From positions 1 to 34,820 of the IMG/VR virus record IMGVR_UViG_3300023184_000323: a stretch of 34,820 nt of DNA. One strand, given 5' to 3'. The notes below the pieces were generated by a model that was given only the letters and a program-made list of their open reading frames with translations, was not told where the DNA came from and ran no database searches. This DNA comes from a virus. Both the position numbers and the translations under genes were made by a program. This document shows positions 1-18,110 of this stretch, in pieces. Each line of letters opens with the position of its first letter. Within the stretch, counting starts at the first letter, position 1.

Positions 1-118
1 TTAATTAAAATTTACAGATTGCTAGAATAATGTAAGTTAATCAAATCTTATAATAAATATTATGTTAAATAGCTTGTGCGTATATAATACTCATAGACGC
101 GGAGTCTTAGGCGAAAGG

Positions 119-571
119 TTACTTAGGGGAGGGGAGAGTCAGAACTTCTTCGTAGTCTTTGAGGGAAATCTCTATCCATCCTGATTCAAAGTCAACCCAT
201 CTTTTTTGTACTTCCAAATGAGCAATCTGCTTGTCCTCTGCCATTAGTGAATCTAAGGTAGATTTGGTTAGGTTATCTATGTCAGGTTTTGATTGGTGGA
301 ATCTGCCATGATGTAATGTCTTTTTTTTCTGTGACCATGACGGTGGGACTGGAATAAAAAAAGTAATGGAAGCTCCGACTGGGGGAAGGACAAATTGCTT
401 GGCTTTGGCTTCTGCTAGTAAATCAATTTTATATTTGTTATAACGCTCTAAACGTAATAACCTTTTCAACCCGGCTGGGCGTAATTTCTCTCTAGGGATT
501 CTGAAAAATATTGAATCACCTTGAGTTGCCCTCACATGGGTTTGGGGTGTTATATTAAGAATTACTTTCAT
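119..571 (-). CDS. rusA: RusA-family Holliday junction resolvase
   Basis: The 150-residue protein has the RusA signature: a PDIDNLTK segment at residues 96-103, then LDSLM and EDKQI up to residue 116. Asp97, Asp99, Lys103 and Asp113 fit the acidic and lysine residues that bind metal and cut in RusA. RusA enzymes are small dimers that resolve four-way junctions during phage recombination and before packaging. The first 60 residues are basic and longer than I expect for the family. The start is the ATG at 571, which overlaps the end of the RHH gene upstream, so the two are probably translated together. Downstream, 1-118 holds no gene that I can support, only a weak hairpin near 95-107. A second junction-processing candidate (NinG type) lies at 6349. 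The family call is confident; activity is inferred. Confidence 0.85.
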   Translation of the reverse strand: MKVILNITPQTHVRATQGDSIFFRIPREKLRPAGLKRLLRLERYNKYKIDLLAEAKAKQFVLPPVGASITFFIPVPPSWSQKKKTLHHGRFHQSKPDIDNLTKSTLDSLMAEDKQIAHLEVQKRWVDFESGWIEISLKDYEEVLTLPSPK

Positions 572-734
572 AACCTACCCCTCCTGTGTATTGAACTATT
601 TTTTTGTGTTTTGCTATCTGTCTTTCTAAGATGTCCTCTACTGTTTTACTTAATGACCATTTTTTCTTCTGAGCCAAAAGTTGTAGTTTAATATAACTTT
701 CTTCTGAAAGGCTGATTGTTATTCTTTTTTTCAT
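555..734 (-). CDS. Small ribbon-helix-helix (CopG/Arc-like) DNA-binding protein
   Basis: This 59-residue protein starts at the ATG at 734 and ends inside the rusA gene, overlapping it by 17 bases. The N-terminus (KKRITISL) is a short basic beta strand, followed by two predicted helices, roughly residues 10-24 and 29-45, with SLSKTVEDIL at the start of the second. This is the layout of ribbon-helix-helix repressors, which bind palindromes as dimers. It is the first gene of a two-gene unit with rusA. Two palindromes, at 761-774 and 787-803, lie just upstream, so it may regulate itself, although either could be the site of another phage repressor. The basic tail (HKK) and short C-terminus carry no sensor domain. 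The fold is fairly sure; the target is inferred. Confidence 0.7.
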   Translation of the reverse strand: MKKRITISLSEESYIKLQLLAQKKKWSLSKTVEDILERQIAKHKKIVQYTGGVGYESNS

Positions 735-760
735 GTGATGCAGTTTGATGCAATTTACAT

Positions 761-774
761 CATGTTATAACATG
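761..774. promoter_or_regulatory. Palindromic operator candidate with GTTATAAC core
   Basis: CATGTTATAACATG is a perfect 14-base palindrome placed 27 bases upstream of the RHH/rusA unit. The same GTTATAAC core recurs twice at 6004-6031, upstream of the recombination operon. Two direct copies of TGATGCA (736-742 and 747-753) lie between this palindrome and the start codon. Operator function is inferred from symmetry, position and recurrence. Confidence 0.5.
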
Positions 775-786
775 TACCAAAAAAAG

Positions 787-803
787 TTCTCTATTAGTGA
801 ACA
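787..803. promoter_or_regulatory. Operator candidate, imperfect copy of the 6108-6126 palindrome
   Basis: GTTCTCTATTAGTGAAC matches the central 17 bases of the perfect palindrome at 6108-6126 (GTTCACGATTCGTGAAC) at 14 of 17 positions, with both GTTC/GAAC ends kept. It lies between the terminator of the 874-1617 operon and the RHH/rusA unit. A shared repressor is the simplest reading. Confidence 0.45.
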
Positions 804-805
804 AA

Positions 806-832
806 TAAAAAACCTCCTTTTTTAAGGGAGGC
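806..832 (-). terminator. Rho-independent terminator of the 1617-874 operon
   Basis: On the minus strand a CCTCC/GGAGG stem with a 9-base loop is followed by a run of T (the A run at 806-813). It lies about 40 bases after the stop codon of the 62-residue gene, where a terminator is expected. Confidence 0.7.
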
Positions 833-873
833 TTCTTTCTTTCAAAATGAGAAAACATAAAACCAACAACAAA

Positions 874-1062
874 CTATTTTCTACCCATTGCTGATAGCTT
901 TGAGAATTTCTTTGCACCATATTTTTTACGGCCTACTTTGGCTGCTATAGCGGCTCCAATTTCTTTTGCTTTAACTGATGACGCTCCTTTACTTTCGTAC
1001 GATTCTGCGGCTTTATTTGCGATTGCAGCGAATCTAGCTCCTGATCCTAATTTTGCTTTCAT
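874..1062 (-). CDS. Small basic phage protein, possibly virion-associated
   Basis: The 62-residue protein is rich in Lys, Ala and Gly and almost without aromatic residues. It opens with KLGSGARFAAI and closes with the pattern GRKKYGAKKFSKL. I recall small proteins of this GSGxRFAA...GRKKYGxKKFxK type in many tailed phages, often near structural genes, with no proven role; DNA or capsid association is a reasonable guess from the charge. It is the last gene of a three-gene minus-strand unit, two bases downstream of its neighbour, and a strong terminator follows. A long plus-strand reading frame covers the same DNA but is judged to be a shadow. Function is unknown. Confidence 0.65.
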   Translation of the reverse strand: MKAKLGSGARFAAIANKAAESYESKGASSVKAKEIGAAIAAKVGRKKYGAKKFSKLSAMGRK

Positions 1063-1064
1063 GT

Positions 1065-1316
1065 TTATTTTTTTATTGGAGGCATTGTCATTGCCATTCT
1101 TGCTTTATTTGAGTAAAATTCGGCTCTTTTTTTATCCTTTAGATCTTGTAGCTTCTGTGCCATTGCCATCTTATATGGGCTTGCAACTGTCCTATCAAGC
1201 TCTTTTCCTTGCTTTACGCTTTCTTCTTCCACCACTTTTTTCTTCATCACCTTTAATTTCTTACCTGATTGAGGCATTTGCACATCCATTTCTGTTGTTA
1301 TTTGTTCTAGTGGCAT
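1065..1316 (-). CDS. Small charged hypothetical protein
   Basis: An 83-residue, Lys- and Met-rich protein that I do not recognise. The middle (residues 18-40) has a dense run of lysines and glutamates, and the C-terminal half (about 48-76) reads as a helix with many Lys, Arg and Ala. No cysteine pair, signal peptide or membrane segment is seen. It is packed one base after the 99-residue gene and two bases before the 62-residue gene, so all three are cotranscribed. The shared charge and Met content suggest a group of virion-associated or nucleic-acid-associated proteins, but no direct evidence for that is present. Confidence 0.55.
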   Translation of the reverse strand: MPLEQITTEMDVQMPQSGKKLKVMKKKVVEEESVKQGKELDRTVASPYKMAMAQKLQDLKDKKRAEFYSNKARMAMTMPPIKK

Positions 1317-1317
1317 T

Positions 1318-1617
1318 TTATTTATTTTTGTTTTTTAAAGATTCTAAAACTGATGGAACATTTTTTCTTAACACTTCCTTTTTTTCTTCTTTCGTAACTT
1401 TGATTCCAGATACCTTATCTCCTACTCCTTCTTCCTTTTTTAATTCATATTTAGGCTTGCCTTTTGAATATCCAGCCGTATCCATTGATTCTCTAGTGTA
1501 CTTGTATGGCTCTACCATTCCTCCAACAGTTGTTCTTTCTTTGGTTGTTTTAAATACACCAAGTTTTTTGCGATTACCAGTAATCACTTCTTGTTTTTTC
1601 ATCATACTCAATGCCAT
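1318..1617 (-). CDS. Lysine-rich hypothetical protein, first gene of a three-gene operon
   Basis: A 99-residue protein with an excess of Lys over acidic residues, including MMKKQEV near the start and a C-terminal helix ending KNKNK. I do not recognise the family. It is the first gene behind the minus-strand promoter at 1632-1641, about 15 bases away, so the leader is very short. The next gene follows after one base. The promoter shares 13 bases with the one in front of the tail gene at 22475, which suggests expression at the same time as the structural genes. No transmembrane segment or known motif is visible. Confidence 0.55.
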   Translation of the reverse strand: MALSMMKKQEVITGNRKKLGVFKTTKERTTVGGMVEPYKYTRESMDTAGYSKGKPKYELKKEEGVGDKVSGIKVTKEEKKEVLRKNVPSVLESLKNKNK

Positions 1618-1631
1618 ACAAAATATTTTAC

Positions 1632-1641
1632 CAAATATACG
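1632..1641 (-). promoter_or_regulatory. Bacteroidota-type promoter for the 1617-874 operon
   Basis: On the minus strand the sequence reads TTTCGTATATTTG, with TATATTTG matching the Bacteroidota -7 consensus TAnnTTTG. The start codon is at 1617. No clear -33 TTTG is seen. The same 13 bases precede the tail unit at 22475 and occur at 29419-29431. Confidence 0.6.
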
Positions 1642-1689
1642 AAATATTTAAACCACCATATTAAGAAAATACAAAAAACTTCTACATCA

Positions 1690-1925
1690 ACATATACTAA
1701 AGCTACCCCCCGCTGAAAAAAAGTCCGCCAAAAAAATGGGGTTTCGGTTTCCCTTGAGTGGGTAGGTCGGTTTGCGGTTTCTCTTGCACCTTTCCCGTCT
1801 TGTGTTGTTGGTGTTGGGTTTCGGTGGGGTTGTGGCTAATTGGTTGGACTCTTGCAATCTTATTGCGTGGTGGTTTGGTTGGGCTGTTGTGTGTTTAGTT
1901 TAATGGTGGGGATAAGGGGGGAAGA
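1690..1925. other. GT-rich non-coding spacer
   Basis: The gap between 1618 and 2009 has no convincing gene. In 1741-1920 a hand count gives A 15, C 23, G 67, T 75: A is nearly absent and G+C is about half, against roughly one third in the flanks. Repeated GGTTTCGG- and TTGGTTGG-like words and G-runs are visible, ending in GGGGATAAGGGGGG. No start codon opens a frame longer than about 27 codons. It could be an origin, a packaging or terminus signal, or a recently acquired spacer; the sequence does not decide. Confidence 0.6.
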
Positions 1926-1999
1926 TGTAGCTACATTTGCTATAATTAATTTAATTTTTGTAGCTACATTTAAAAATTTTCCATAATTTTGTAGCTACA
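1926..1999. promoter_or_regulatory. Three identical TGTAGCTACA operators
   Basis: The perfect 10-base palindrome TGTAGCTACA occurs at 1926-1935, 1959-1968 and 1990-1999, spaced 33 and 31 bases, close to three helical turns. The second overlaps a -33 TTTG and the third overlaps the -7 element of the promoter for the RHH gene at 2010. This is a typical repressor array; binding by the product of the 2010 gene is inferred. Confidence 0.7.
1957..1991 (+). promoter_or_regulatory. Promoter of the 2010 operon
   Basis: TTTG at 1957-1960 and TAATTTTG at 1984-1991 (fits TAnnTTTG) are separated by 23 bases, at the upper end of the accepted Bacteroidota spacing. Transcription would start near 1996, giving a leader of about 14 bases. 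Confidence 0.5.
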
Positions 2000-2009
2000 A
2001 TTATTTTAT

Positions 2010-2306
2010 ATGGCAAAAAGCAAACCAATTGGAGTTAGATTTGACTTAGAAAAGTTAGAATTAATCCAAAAAGAACAAAATTTAAATTCAGCTCAGGCTG
2101 TTTTGAATTATTTAATGGACAATTATGGTCATGGTCAGGTTAAAAGAGGCGCACCATTTAAAAATATGCCTCCTTATGACAGAAACAGCCCAAAATCAGA
2201 GGTTAGTTCCAAATTGGAACAAATACCTGTTGAAAACCATAAAACGCCGCCAAAGGGCTTAAAAGGGATAGATTTAATGATTTGGAAATCGGAAAATGGA
2301 ATTTAA
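2010..2306 (+). CDS. Ribbon-helix-helix regulator, probably autoregulatory
   Basis: The 98-residue protein begins with KPIGVRFD, a likely beta strand, followed by LEKLELIQKEQ and SAQAVLNYLMDNY, two helices in ribbon-helix-helix spacing (residues about 5-40). The C-terminal 55 residues are polar and proline-rich, ending in KGIDLMIWKSENGI, and show no fold that I recognise. RHH dimers bind short palindromes, often in arrays; three copies of TGTAGCTACA sit directly on this gene's promoter, so autorepression is likely. No clear Shine-Dalgarno sequence precedes the ATG. The membrane protein gene follows closely, and the two small basic proteins after it are probably in the same transcript. Confidence 0.65.
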   Translation: MAKSKPIGVRFDLEKLELIQKEQNLNSAQAVLNYLMDNYGHGQVKRGAPFKNMPPYDRNSPKSEVSSKLEQIPVENHKTPPKGLKGIDLMIWKSENGI

Positions 2307-2322: not shown

Positions 2323-2925
2323 ATGAAAAAAATATTATTAGTCTTATCGGCACTTGTAGTTTTAGTTTCTCTTGGTTTTTTAGTTAAGAAACTTACCAAA
2401 ACACAACTTGCCCACGAAAAAGCATTAGTGATTGTTGAAGGTAAATTTGCATTTTGTGGTGCATCTGCGGCAAAACCAACAGGTGATACCATAACTGTAG
2501 AAGGTAAACAATTCTTGGAAGGAGTAGCAGCTTGTCCTGTAATGGATGGCCCTTCTGTTGCAAATAACATATTGGTTCCTAATCCATCAGTGACTCCAGA
2601 TAGCACAGACAAAACAGTGTGGTCTTATTTTTGGTATTACGATTCAGTTCCTCAATCACCAACTTGGGAGAAGTTAGCTACAGTTAATCGCACATTTACA
2701 ATTGGGAATACTCCAGAAACAAGCATGAGCAATATGTGGTGTATGCCTTGTAAAATATTACCACAAAGAGTTAATGGTGTAACTATAGCAGAATGTTTCG
2801 GCCCACTTAATGAGTTAGCATTTCCAATGCGTAGAGCAATTAGAGCAAAGCCGGGTGAAACATCTGTAACACAAGCACCTGTTGGAGCAACATATTCAGT
2901 TGGAACTATAATACCTAAGCAATGA
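2323..2925 (+). CDS. Membrane-anchored or exported cysteine-containing protein
   Basis: With the start at the ATG at 2323 the protein has 200 residues and opens with MKK and a hydrophobic stretch (about residues 4-21), a signal anchor or signal peptide. An upstream ATG at 2296 would add nine residues and overlap the RHH gene by 11 bases; I prefer 2323 because MKK-hydrophobic is a typical membrane start. Beyond the membrane segment there are cysteines at 45, 71, 140, 143 and 158. Residues 139-143 read WCMPC, like the thioredoxin active site, but the flanks do not look like a thioredoxin fold. The role is unknown; an envelope protein or one that alters host surface properties is possible. The stop codon overlaps the next start (ATGA). 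Confidence 0.6.
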   Translation: MKKILLVLSALVVLVSLGFLVKKLTKTQLAHEKALVIVEGKFAFCGASAAKPTGDTITVEGKQFLEGVAACPVMDGPSVANNILVPNPSVTPDSTDKTVWSYFWYYDSVPQSPTWEKLATVNRTFTIGNTPETSMSNMWCMPCKILPQRVNGVTIAECFGPLNELAFPMRRAIRAKPGETSVTQAPVGATYSVGTIIPKQ

Positions 2926-3074
2926 GTAAATTAAAAATGATGAAACGAGCTGACGGATCAACTTCGCCTCGTGGTTTATGGGATAACATTCGTGCTAACA
3001 AAGGAAGTGGAAAGAAACCAACTCCAGAAATGTTAAAGCAAGAAAAGAAAATTAAAGCACAAGAAAAAAAATAA
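2922..3074 (+). CDS. 50-residue basic phage protein
   Basis: A small lysine-rich protein whose centre reads GLWDNIRANKGSGKKPTPEM. Short proteins with the pattern GLWxNIxAxxxxGSGKxP(T/S) are common in tailed phages, in my recollection, and are usually left as hypothetical; some are suspected virion components. The start ATG overlaps the TGA of the membrane protein gene (ATGA), which indicates translational coupling. The next gene begins three bases after its stop. The C-terminal third is a highly charged helix (KQEKKIKAQEKK). I assign no function. Confidence 0.6.
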   Translation: MSKLKMMKRADGSTSPRGLWDNIRANKGSGKKPTPEMLKQEKKIKAQEKK

Positions 3075-3076
3075 CA

Positions 3077-3364
3077 ATGGCATCAGAAGCTTGGCAAAAA
3101 AAAGAAGGTAAAAATCCTGAAGGTGGGCTAAACCAAAAAGGTCGTGATTCATACAATCATGCTCATGGTGGTCATTTGAAAGCCCCTGTTAAAAGTGGAA
3201 CTAACCCTCGTAGAGTTTCATTTGCAGCTAGATTTGCAGGCATGATGGGTGCTATGAAGAAGCCTAATGGTGAACCAACAAGGAAAGCTTTAGCTTTGAA
3301 AGCTTGGGGATTCGGTAGCGTTGAAGCAGCTCGTAAGTTTGCTAATTCACATAAAAAAAGTTAG
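3077..3364 (+). CDS. Basic conserved phage protein (DUF6321-like)
   Basis: The 95-residue protein starts ASEAWQKKEGKNPEGGLN and carries a second conserved-looking block, NPRRVSFAARFAGMMG, then KPNGEPTRKALALKAWGF. This pattern matches a family of small basic phage and bacterial proteins that I recall as DUF6321; the number should be checked. The role is unknown; the composition (Lys, Arg, Gly, Ala, His) fits a nucleic-acid-binding or packaged protein. It ends with TAG, showing that TAG is a stop in this phage. It is the last gene of the plus-strand unit and converges on the minus-strand tRNA-Gln only two bases away. Confidence 0.6.
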   Translation: MASEAWQKKEGKNPEGGLNQKGRDSYNHAHGGHLKAPVKSGTNPRRVSFAARFAGMMGAMKKPNGEPTRKALALKAWGFGSVEAARKFANSHKKS

Positions 3365-6348: not shown

Positions 6349-6891
6349 TTACCCTTGTAAAAATTTCTTTTTTACTTGGTTTAGCTTTGATCTATATTCA
6401 ATAATCAAGCTTTTAAGCTCATCTTTTGTCGGTTTCTCAACTTGTCTTGCAATTGTTTGTAAAAATTCAACTATACCCGTAGATTCTTGTTCTAATTTTT
6501 TTGAATAAACCTCTAAATTACCTGATAGAAAACAATTATCATGTTCTGATTGTGGTCTGCAATTATGTTCCATCCATCTTGTTGCTAAATTTGCTCTTGG
6601 TATAAAATGTCCATTATGAATTTTAGTCCAATGAAATTTTTTACCAGATGTAAAACATTCTACCATACCTTCTTTATCAGCATACTTACAACGAATGTAT
6701 TGACTAAATACTACATCAAGATCTTGTACTAAATTCTGAAAGCTTTCAGAATCATCTTCAAATTCTTCCATTCTTTTTTGCGTAGAATGTATAGTAGCAC
6801 ACTGTTTGCACATCTTTTTAGAAAAATGATAATCAATATTACCACAATTAACGCAGCGTTTTTTCTTAACTATTATTGTTGAATTTCTCAT
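6349..6891 (-). CDS. ninG: NinG/Rap-type recombination protein
   Basis: The 180-residue protein opens with a zinc-binding pattern, Cys13-Cys16 and Cys28-Cys31, followed by a helix and then DLDVVFSQYIRCKYADKEG and the block CFTSGKKFHWTKIHNGHFIPR. The segment GHFIPRANLATRWMEHNCRPQ is typical of NinG, the lambda Rap protein, which acts on branched recombination intermediates. The length is close to lambda NinG. It is the last gene of a minus-strand unit behind two tiny genes and is followed by a possible terminator. With the PD-(D/E)XK nuclease and RusA it makes a recombination set. The family call is confident from the motif order. Confidence 0.85.
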   Translation of the reverse strand: MRNSTIIVKKKRCVNCGNIDYHFSKKMCKQCATIHSTQKRMEEFEDDSESFQNLVQDLDVVFSQYIRCKYADKEGMVECFTSGKKFHWTKIHNGHFIPRANLATRWMEHNCRPQSEHDNCFLSGNLEVYSKKLEQESTGIVEFLQTIARQVEKPTKDELKSLIIEYRSKLNQVKKKFLQG

Positions 6892-15734: not shown

Positions 15735-18110
15735 TTGGCAGATAGTCCTTTATCAATATCCGCAGCAAATAGTAATGGAGAAGCCTTAAAAAAGTTTCAA
15801 ATTACTACAGATGTGTCGTCTAAAAAAGACTATGCATATGGTAAAAATGTTGCACAAAGCATCTACTCTACAATTTACGGTAACCAAACTTATTTTTGGT
15901 TAAGAAATAATAGATTTAGAAAAAATAGACAAATTGCAAACGGTAAAATAGACATGAGTGTGTTTATGGATCGTTTGGAAATGAATAGCAAAGCTAACTT
16001 TGTAAATATAAATTGGAAATCAATTATTATTGGTAATACAATTGTTGCAAGATTAGTTGGTTCGTGGATGAGTAGAAGTGAAAAAGTTACAGTTACCGCT
16101 ACAGATAGCGCATCTGCAATGCTTAAAAAATCAGCAGCAGATGAAGCTGAATTTATTTATCAAAATAAAGAAATACTTTCTCAGTTACAACAAGAGTCAG
16201 GTATTCCAATTATTCCACAAGATCAATTTATTGCAGAAGATAAAGATGAATTAGATAGATGGATTACTGAGTTTAATCATTTACCAGAAGAAATACAATA
16301 TAGCATTGGATGTAATAATGTATTAGAAGCTAATGGATGGAATGATGTTTTAAAACAAAGATTATTACATGATTCAGCAGAAGTTGGATTAGTGTGTACT
16401 TATACTTGGATGGATGAAGAAGGTGAGGTTCATGTTCAATGGATTAGACCTGAAAATGCAATTTATTCTTATTCTGATTTCCCAGATTTTAGAGATACTA
16501 CTTATAGGGGTCATATTTTATCAATGAAAGTTAGTGAAATTAGAGCAAGATATAGTATTGCAGCTGGTGGAACATTAACAGAGGAAGATATATTTCAATT
16601 AGCAACATCATCAAAAGAATATCAATTAACAGATAAGATTAAGTGGATGCAAGATTGGAATGTTGCTTGGTTAAGACCTTATGATGAATGGAATATTGAT
16701 ATGATGCAGTTTGAAATTAGAACATTAGATTCTGATGGATATACTGTTACTAAGACTAAAAAGAATGGCAGCACTATTATTAGAAAAGGTAAGCCAGAAA
16801 AATTAGATGAGAATCAAGAATATGTAGAAGAGAAAAAATGGAATATATATCATGGTGTATATTGTCCAGTTACTCAAAAAATGATTCAGTGGGGTATTAA
16901 AAAGAATATGATTCGCCCACAAGATCCAAAAGAATTAGGAAACGCAGAGTTTTCATATAGCTTTTATATGTACGATCCATACGATATGCGTAATGTGGCC
17001 GTACCTGAAAAAATTGAAGAGCCAATTGAACAAATGATTTTGGCTAGGTTGAAAATACAACAAATGGTTGCTAAGATGGTACCAGCAGGTGCTTCTATTG
17101 ATGTAGATGCATTGCAAGAACTAGACTTAGGATTAGGGGATTCCGTAAAGCCATTAGATGTTCAAAAAATTTGGGAACAAACTGGTAAACTTTACTATCG
17201 TGGTAGAGATGCAGAAGGAAATAGAATTCCTGTTCCAATTACTGAATTAGCTAATACTGGTTTTGCTCCTCAATTACAAGCGTTAATTCAATTATATCAA
17301 TTCCATTATCAAGTCTTAAAAGATGAGTTAGGAGAAGATCCTAATTTAATGAATCAAGCCGCACAACCAAGAGTTGCTGCATCTAATATTCAAGCTTCAC
17401 AACAACTAGCAAATAACGCAACAGAATATATGTATGATGCATATATTTATGTGATGGAAGAAACATCTAAAAAAATAGCATGTTTATTAAATAAAAGCGT
17501 TACTTATGGAGCTAAAAAATATAGAGATTTATTAAAACAAGAAGATGTAAAAGATAGAAATTTTGTTGCTACAGTTAGAATGATGCCACAAGCTCAAGAG
17601 GTTGCTAATTTACAAATCATGATGAATAATGCTATTGCATCAAATCCTCAATTGGTTATGTATTTAGATCCATTTAAGGTGATGAGAATAGCTAAAGAAA
17701 ATGTTGAATTAGCTGAGTTATATTTTAGACAAGCTCAAAAAAGATTTATAAAAACAGAGCAAGAAAATGCTCAAAATAATTCACAACAAAATGCTGAAGC
17801 TCAACAAGCAAGTATTCAAGCTAAAATGGAAGCTGATACTACTTTGGATGGAAAAAGAGCATTGGCAAGAGAGAAAGAGATTATTTTACAAGGTGTTTTT
17901 GACCTTGCTAAAGCAAATCTTCCAATTCCTCCAGAATTACAACAACTTGTGTCTGATATGTTGCAAAATGTGACAGTTCCGATTGAGGTTCAAAATCAAC
18001 AGCAACAACAAGCTTTAGCTCAACAACAACAACAACAAATGCAGCAACAACAAGGACAAGAACAAATGGCTCCTGAACAAGAACAACAACCTCAATTACA
18101 AGAACAATAA
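15735..18110 (+). CDS. Portal protein with glutamine-rich C-terminus
   Basis: The 791-residue protein follows terL and matches large portal proteins of podoviruses in size, position and content. The N-terminus (residues 30-75) has YGKNVAQSIYSTIYGNQTYFW; a middle block contains NNVLEANGWNDVLKQRLLHD and WMDEEGEVHVQWIRPENAIY; a later block contains MNQAAQPRVAASNIQASQQ, which recalls the stem or wing helix area. The last 55 residues are mainly Gln (runs of five and six), probably flexible inside the capsid. The start is a TTG, the only codon that fits between the promoter and the conserved-looking region. It forms the twelve-fold ring for DNA entry and tail attachment. The call is good from context and sequence. 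Confidence 0.8.
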   Translation: MADSPLSISAANSNGEALKKFQITTDVSSKKDYAYGKNVAQSIYSTIYGNQTYFWLRNNRFRKNRQIANGKIDMSVFMDRLEMNSKANFVNINWKSIIIGNTIVARLVGSWMSRSEKVTVTATDSASAMLKKSAADEAEFIYQNKEILSQLQQESGIPIIPQDQFIAEDKDELDRWITEFNHLPEEIQYSIGCNNVLEANGWNDVLKQRLLHDSAEVGLVCTYTWMDEEGEVHVQWIRPENAIYSYSDFPDFRDTTYRGHILSMKVSEIRARYSIAAGGTLTEEDIFQLATSSKEYQLTDKIKWMQDWNVAWLRPYDEWNIDMMQFEIRTLDSDGYTVTKTKKNGSTIIRKGKPEKLDENQEYVEEKKWNIYHGVYCPVTQKMIQWGIKKNMIRPQDPKELGNAEFSYSFYMYDPYDMRNVAVPEKIEEPIEQMILARLKIQQMVAKMVPAGASIDVDALQELDLGLGDSVKPLDVQKIWEQTGKLYYRGRDAEGNRIPVPITELANTGFAPQLQALIQLYQFHYQVLKDELGEDPNLMNQAAQPRVAASNIQASQQLANNATEYMYDAYIYVMEETSKKIACLLNKSVTYGAKKYRDLLKQEDVKDRNFVATVRMMPQAQEVANLQIMMNNAIASNPQLVMYLDPFKVMRIAKENVELAELYFRQAQKRFIKTEQENAQNNSQQNAEAQQASIQAKMEADTTLDGKRALAREKEIILQGVFDLAKANLPIPPELQQLVSDMLQNVTVPIEVQNQQQQQALAQQQQQQMQQQQGQEQMAPEQEQQPQLQEQ

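Follow-up and report, generated by a model that had tools for sequence, protein, structure and literature searches.

The window analysed here, a linear IMG/VR virus record of 34,820 bases, carries three copies of the 10-bp palindrome TGTAGCTACA on the promoter of an operon whose first gene, at position 2010, encodes a 98-aa protein resembling ribbon-helix-helix (RHH) proteins. We consider it very probable that this array is the operator of that operon and that the RHH product of the 2010 gene represses its own expression through it. Several things can be read directly in the window and its relatives: the array is there, it is fused to the promoter, it is conserved, its copies are in helical phase, and it switches together with the head of the protein. 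Autorepression by RHH proteins is a known principle; what is new is the family, the separation of the sites, and the joint switching of head and operator. A widespread, uncharacterised phage protein family hereby gains a testable function and a DNA target.

Proposed operator array, promoter and regulator

The three copies of TGTAGCTACA are exact and lie 33 and then 31 bases apart (start to start), just as the preliminary description had them. No other copy is found in the 34.8-kb window, where dinucleotide shuffles expect 0.01. When one mismatch is permitted, only two further sites appear, at 17564 and 24390, each within a long ORF. The features of the region are listed below.

1926..1935, no strand: operator copy 1, TGTAGCTACA, exact match, about -70 to -61
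1957..1960, plus strand: possible -33 box TTTG, from sequence and the consensus TTTG of PMC2483708, spacing atypical
1959..1968, no strand: operator copy 2, TGTAGCTACA, exact match, over the -33 region
1984..1991, plus strand: -7 box TAATTTTG (TAnnTTTG), from sequence and the Bacteroidota consensus of PMC9723704 and PMC2483708
1990..1999, no strand: operator copy 3, TGTAGCTACA, exact match, overlapping the last bases of the -7 box and the predicted transcription start
1996, plus strand: predicted transcription start, with a leader of about 14 nt, placed from the -12 to -5 position of the -7 box
2010..2306, plus strand: proposed 98-aa autoregulator with RHH head (residues 1-44), linker and conserved C-terminal tail, from homologs, fold matches and swap relatives
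2244..2297, plus strand: part of the gene that encodes the conserved tail TPPKGLKGIDLMIWKSEN, retained upon head exchange, from alignment and zinc-head relatives
2323..2925, plus strand: downstream gene of variable position for a 200-aa membrane-anchored or exported cysteine-containing protein (21 of 80 relatives; alignment)
2922..3074, plus strand: downstream gene for a 50-aa basic protein, P2922 (75 of 80 relatives)
3077..3364, plus strand: downstream gene for a DUF6321 protein (PF19846, Pfam 84 bits against a cut-off of 28.5; 74 of 80 relatives)

The final TG of TAATTTTG is common to the -7 box and operator copy 3. In the Bacteroidota consensus, the distance from the -33 to the -7 box is about 20 bp. 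The TTTG at 1957-1960, whose TG is common to copy 2, is a possible -33 box from its sequence, and since it is separated from the -7 box by 23 bp, it is less certain than the latter. TTTG itself is the Bacteroidota -33 consensus (PMC2483708). The -7 box was mapped at -12 to -5 in Flavobacterium psychrophilum (PMC9723704), and therefore the start is predicted near 1996, within copy 3. Of the promoter overlap proposed before, the part concerning copy 3 and the -7 box holds through the shared TG, whereas the part concerning copy 2 and the -33 box is less certain, owing to the atypical 23-bp spacing. The operator thus overlaps the promoter of the very operon that encodes the 2010 protein, as in an autorepressor.

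In the homolog alignment of the 2010 protein, K3-D12 is a near-invariant stretch, and it is the predicted DNA-reading strand; the tail follows the pattern PP.GLKGIDL.IWK.EN in the relatives. AlphaFold2 places helices at 13-22 and 28-38 after residues 5-11 (pTM 0.33). In this single-chain model, which cannot show an RHH dimer, the predicted helix order after K3-D12 is that expected for RHH, with the strand unpaired in one chain. Five reported VIA fold matches over residues 5-44, including VapB11, DNA-bound CopG, Arc and YiiF, are weak (Z 2.3-3.7), and so are the results of Foldseek alone (best E 2.9). These fold neighbours favour an RHH assignment as support, not as proof. On the other hand, none of 31 family members matched an RHH model in Pfam or PHROGs, and there was no sequence match in PDB, so that an assignment by sequence was abandoned. 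The RHH call made at the outset is therefore backed by the weak fold matches to CopG and Arc but not by any curated sequence model, which weakens the claim to a named RHH family and not to RHH-like action.

The INPHARED phages contain no homolog of the 2010 protein, and the GTDB genomes gave a single match, on a contig of a Taylorbacteria bin that looks like stray phage DNA. The TerL of the window phage is at most about 30% identical to those of Flavobacterium, Cellulophaga and other phages. Judging from the promoter type and from kin, the host would belong to the Bacteroidota. As to the 2323-2925 product, it has invariant cysteines and matches no family, and in related phages a signal peptide that looks cleavable is found instead. 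A structure model of this 200-aa protein was too poor (pLDDT 44) and was discarded.

Conservation of the array and exchange of head and operator

An IMG/VR protein search with the 2010 product returned 136 relatives, of which 80 were kept; the counts for relatives include near-identical contigs. Every RHH homolog whose operon head can be seen, 75 in all, has two or three exact copies of TGTAGCTACA. The remaining five comprise three contigs cut before the operon head (L020, L054, L079) and two with a longer N-terminus and a different head (L036, L037). The preliminary description had suggested searching related phages for the same 10-mer array before an RHH gene, and had named homologs that keep the gene and lose the array as an observation that would count against it. 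The search found the array in 75 of 75 such homologs, and the adverse case did not arise.

Of 79 distinct arrays, 78 end in a copy that runs into TAnnTTTG, the lone exception being L106 with TACCTTG, and because of this fusion to the -7 box the last copy covers the predicted transcription start. Among 116 array spacings, 107 are 31-34, 8 are 42-43 and none is 35-41. These correspond to 3 or 4 helical turns, and therefore the copies lie on one face of the DNA. Between copy 2 and the last copy the spacing in the family is 31-32, with a variant class of 42-43; a spacing of 31-32 could be set by the promoter, but the 33-34 upstream and the 42-43 could not. The array stays in place in operons that have gained a different first gene (PAPS-reductase-like, MDLELIL and others), and also where the P2922-DUF6321 genes are relocated (L006, L024, L028, L033, L046). 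It thus follows the RHH gene. In IMG/VR, paired TGTAGCTACA occurs in at least 120 stretches, compared with 6 for TAGTGCACTA, a palindrome of the same composition. An open PMC full-text search returned no paper describing TGTAGCTACA as an operator.

Some relatives have the same tail behind a head that resembles a zinc finger (C..C...FCSDKC), in some cases joined to GIY-YIG or RHH segments. Their promoters carry a direct-repeat array, ATCGTAACA, with 3-7 CGTAACA repeats and never two palindromes. A tally covered the unique proteins for which 120 nt or more of DNA upstream was available. Of 82 proteins with the RHH head, 81 had TGTAGCTACA (the operon head of the exception is off its contig); CGTAACA accompanied the zinc head in 11 of 12 and the zinc and RHH fusion in 3 of 3, with no crossover. 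The twelfth zinc-head case, L382, has TATATTTGCGTAACA farther upstream. On the tree of the neighbouring RusA, at least 3 independent head switches fall on branches with good support, each accompanied by a change of operator; the three switch pairs are too few for significance. In L399, L400 and L403, one TGTAGCTACA still precedes the new CGTAACA array, apparently as a relic.

In L036, L037 and L409, the small regulator is replaced by fusions of zinc finger, GIY-YIG, RHH and tail, preceded by a CGTAACA array in the first two. The fusions of L036, L037, L324 and L409 retain an RHH part without two palindromes, and thus the array cannot be predicted merely from the presence of an RHH part. The co-switching is our strongest indication that the array is what the head reads; it suggests, indirectly, binding and repression as well. 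It acts as a natural control, in which the operator changes when the DNA-reading head changes. The best reading is that the head and its matching operator form one exchangeable cassette before a conserved tail. The compact autorepressed switch of the preliminary description is supported accordingly, the array being kept in every homolog with a visible operon head and an alternative head coming with an alternative array.

The same observations bear on whether the palindromes are instead bound by a second, Arc-like RHH protein, encoded on the minus strand at 555-734. This protein is encoded 1.2 kb from the array and matches Arc-like repressor families (PHROG E 6e-5, and several RHH Pfam models below cut-off). 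However, no match to it is found in 5 of 8 array-carrying relatives of 57-70 kb, and the array tracks the 2010 gene and changes with the head of the 2010 protein. We regard it as a most unlikely binder.

Proposed mode of action, known systems and reach

We infer binding, repression, cooperativity and timing along the following lines. Dimers of the 98-aa RHH protein would bind the 10-bp palindromes in the major groove, one on copy 3 covering the end of the -7 box and the transcription start, and one on copy 2 covering the -33 region, so that RNA polymerase would be kept off. At infection the promoter would be free and would fire, and the accumulating protein would then silence the operon that encodes it, so that the downstream proteins would come in a pulse or be kept at a set level. 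Copies on the same face would allow joint action, perhaps via the conserved C-terminal tail and not the RHH cores.

In CopG, Arc and MetJ, dimers on adjacent sites touch through core-to-core contacts of the RHH folds. The likeness to these systems is that they are small RHH autorepressors with palindromic operators on their own promoters, and CopG and Arc are among the fold neighbours. The difference is that their palindromes are adjacent, whereas here they are 3-4 turns apart, with gaps of 21-24 bp or 32-33 bp in the family, and the protein has a tail of about 55 aa with a conserved end. Cooperative binding, which had been expected at first by analogy with RHH repressors, is improbable in that form, as the 21-23 bp between the palindromes of the window are too wide for direct core contacts of the CopG, Arc or MetJ type. 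NikR offers another comparison: its RHH dimers sit on half-sites about 2 turns apart and are bridged by a C-terminal metal-binding ACT fold. The sites are likewise separated by a whole number of turns, but the 2010 protein has, in place of the ACT domain, a short tail matched to no family. In the lambdoid CI repressors, the DNA-reading head and the operators change together and the C-terminal part is kept. The co-variation of head and operators with a retained C-terminal part resembles this heteroimmunity; the folds differ, and here there is no evidence of lysogeny and control is apparently limited to one operon.

The same 10-mer also occurs before other RHH genes. In unrelated phages, TGTAGCTACA arrays precede BrnA antitoxins, three of them above the Pfam cut-off, and in L122, L162 and L179 a BrnT toxin gene lies behind a TGTAGCTACA pair spaced by 35 bp, with BrnA following in L122. 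A RelB antitoxin over the Pfam cut-off (L231) and an RHH_3-like protein below it (L136) are also found behind TGTAGCTACA arrays. With such antitoxins behind the same site, and the 2010 product being a small RHH protein with a conserved tail, the operon might be a type II toxin-antitoxin operon whose antitoxin binds a toxin through the tail. Yet it has no constant adjacent gene, as different genes come next in different relatives and some have P2922-DUF6321 at another place; and, unlike in the BrnTA and RelB systems, the 2010 protein is without an accompanying toxin gene or a Pfam match, no toxin family being found among its neighbours with Pfam and PHROGs. We take the toxin-antitoxin reading to be very unlikely.

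A GC-rich actinophage group has TGTAGCTACA arrays with 23- and 34-bp spacings, and the record of L132 contains 43 copies, paired, before many genes. The paired copies are a probable regulon in that group. Six records (L132, L187, L222, L242, L243, L250) are actinophage-like, about 98 kb long, with dozens of TGTAGCTACA pairs 23-24 bp apart and about 38 nt before many genes. By this example, the 2010 protein could be an activator or wider regulator whose sites recruit the polymerase to several phage promoters, and two relatives of the 2010 family indeed have one further promoter-proximal copy. On the other hand, copy 3 covers the predicted transcription start in the 2010 family. The 57-70 kb relatives have only a few single extra copies, mostly within genes and often in Val-Ala-Thr codons, and the one promoter-like copy is kept in only 2 of 17 relatives. 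We therefore discarded a wider regulon for the 2010 family, and activation or wider regulation appears unlikely. The preliminary description had left targets beyond the operon open; no conserved extra target was found in the window or the relatives compared, and autorepression by the 2010 protein looks, from the distribution of sites, like a switch that acts locally, on its own operon.

Two further loci are of interest. In L110, eight exact TGTAGCTACA lie within 125 bp (871-995); the gene behind them looks like RHH and has a C-terminus that resembles a zinc finger. Control pairs were few, and one of them, in L214 with the two TAGTGCACTA spaced by 33 bp, likewise precedes an RHH-looking gene. 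The occurrence of one 10-mer before several unrelated RHH families suggests that the site was adopted by RHH proteins more than once, and such a recurring site would make it easier to find the targets of further RHH genes that lack annotation.

A probable genome end next to the array

The array borders on a region that appears to be a genome end.

1..1925, no strand: left arm of a putative terminal inverted repeat, by homology; the far copy is outside the 34.8-kb fragment

By homology, a palindromic tip is centred near base 2 of the window; the window begins 2 bases before this centre, and therefore bases 1-1925 would be one arm. In all 5 relatives tested, an inverted copy of the sequence stands at the opposite end of the contig, and the inner boundary of the repeat falls between 10 bp before and 2 bp into copy 1. 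The repeat is seen across L322, L327 and L336 and across G012, G014, G015, G016 and G018. Contig ends fall in two places: 27-166 bp before the array in 34 of 75, and just past RusA, where for 64 of 67 RusA loci the contig stops between -192 and +222 bp relative to the end of the gene. L322, L327 and L336 continue past RusA as perfect palindromes over the stretches compared, with arms of 2927, 2541 and 2876 nt, such long arms being shaped by assembler mirroring; array positions in the L322 contig are mirrored about its middle. Several other contigs cross the palindrome centre by 11-63 nt. This pattern would fit a linear tailed-phage genome whose terminal inverted repeat is roughly 2-5 kb long and whose tips are either hairpins or joined head to head. 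In short reads, closed hairpins look the same as joined ends or as a circular form that contains a palindrome. A protelomerase search (PF16684) found none, and a search for a protein-primed polymerase (PF03175) gave no match, with an equally silent control. The hairpin-like genome end may be a bigger discovery than the switch.

RHH proteins such as ParG and omega use arrays for partition. The array might accordingly be mainly a DNA-handling site, for partition, replication or the telomere, with the RHH protein as its binding factor and promoter control secondary; in the 5 relatives it is found where the terminal inverted repeat has its inner edge, and it adjoins a GT-rich element. In those same relatives, however, it is present at just one of the two genome ends, and it is tightly fused to the promoter, which makes a primary role of this kind highly improbable. 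Keeping to an operator read by the 2010 protein, we put forward tentatively, as a possibility that we would not favour at present, that head and operator, placed between the tail and the terminal inverted repeat, make up a cassette that has been exchanged by recombination again and again among freshwater phages, leaving each phage with one out of a set of mutually blind, self-repressing switches. If true, it would amount to a heteroimmunity-like control of co-infection, sited at the inner border of a phage genome end that is tipped by a hairpin.

The GT-rich stretch before the array (about 1687-1925 of the window) has repeated CTTGCA-type motifs and is kept in relatives, and contig ends cluster there. 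The window also encodes two junction-resolving enzymes, RusA at 119-571 and one of the NinG/Rap type at 6349-6891; RusA sits within the terminal repeat and may bear on the resolution of palindromic ends.
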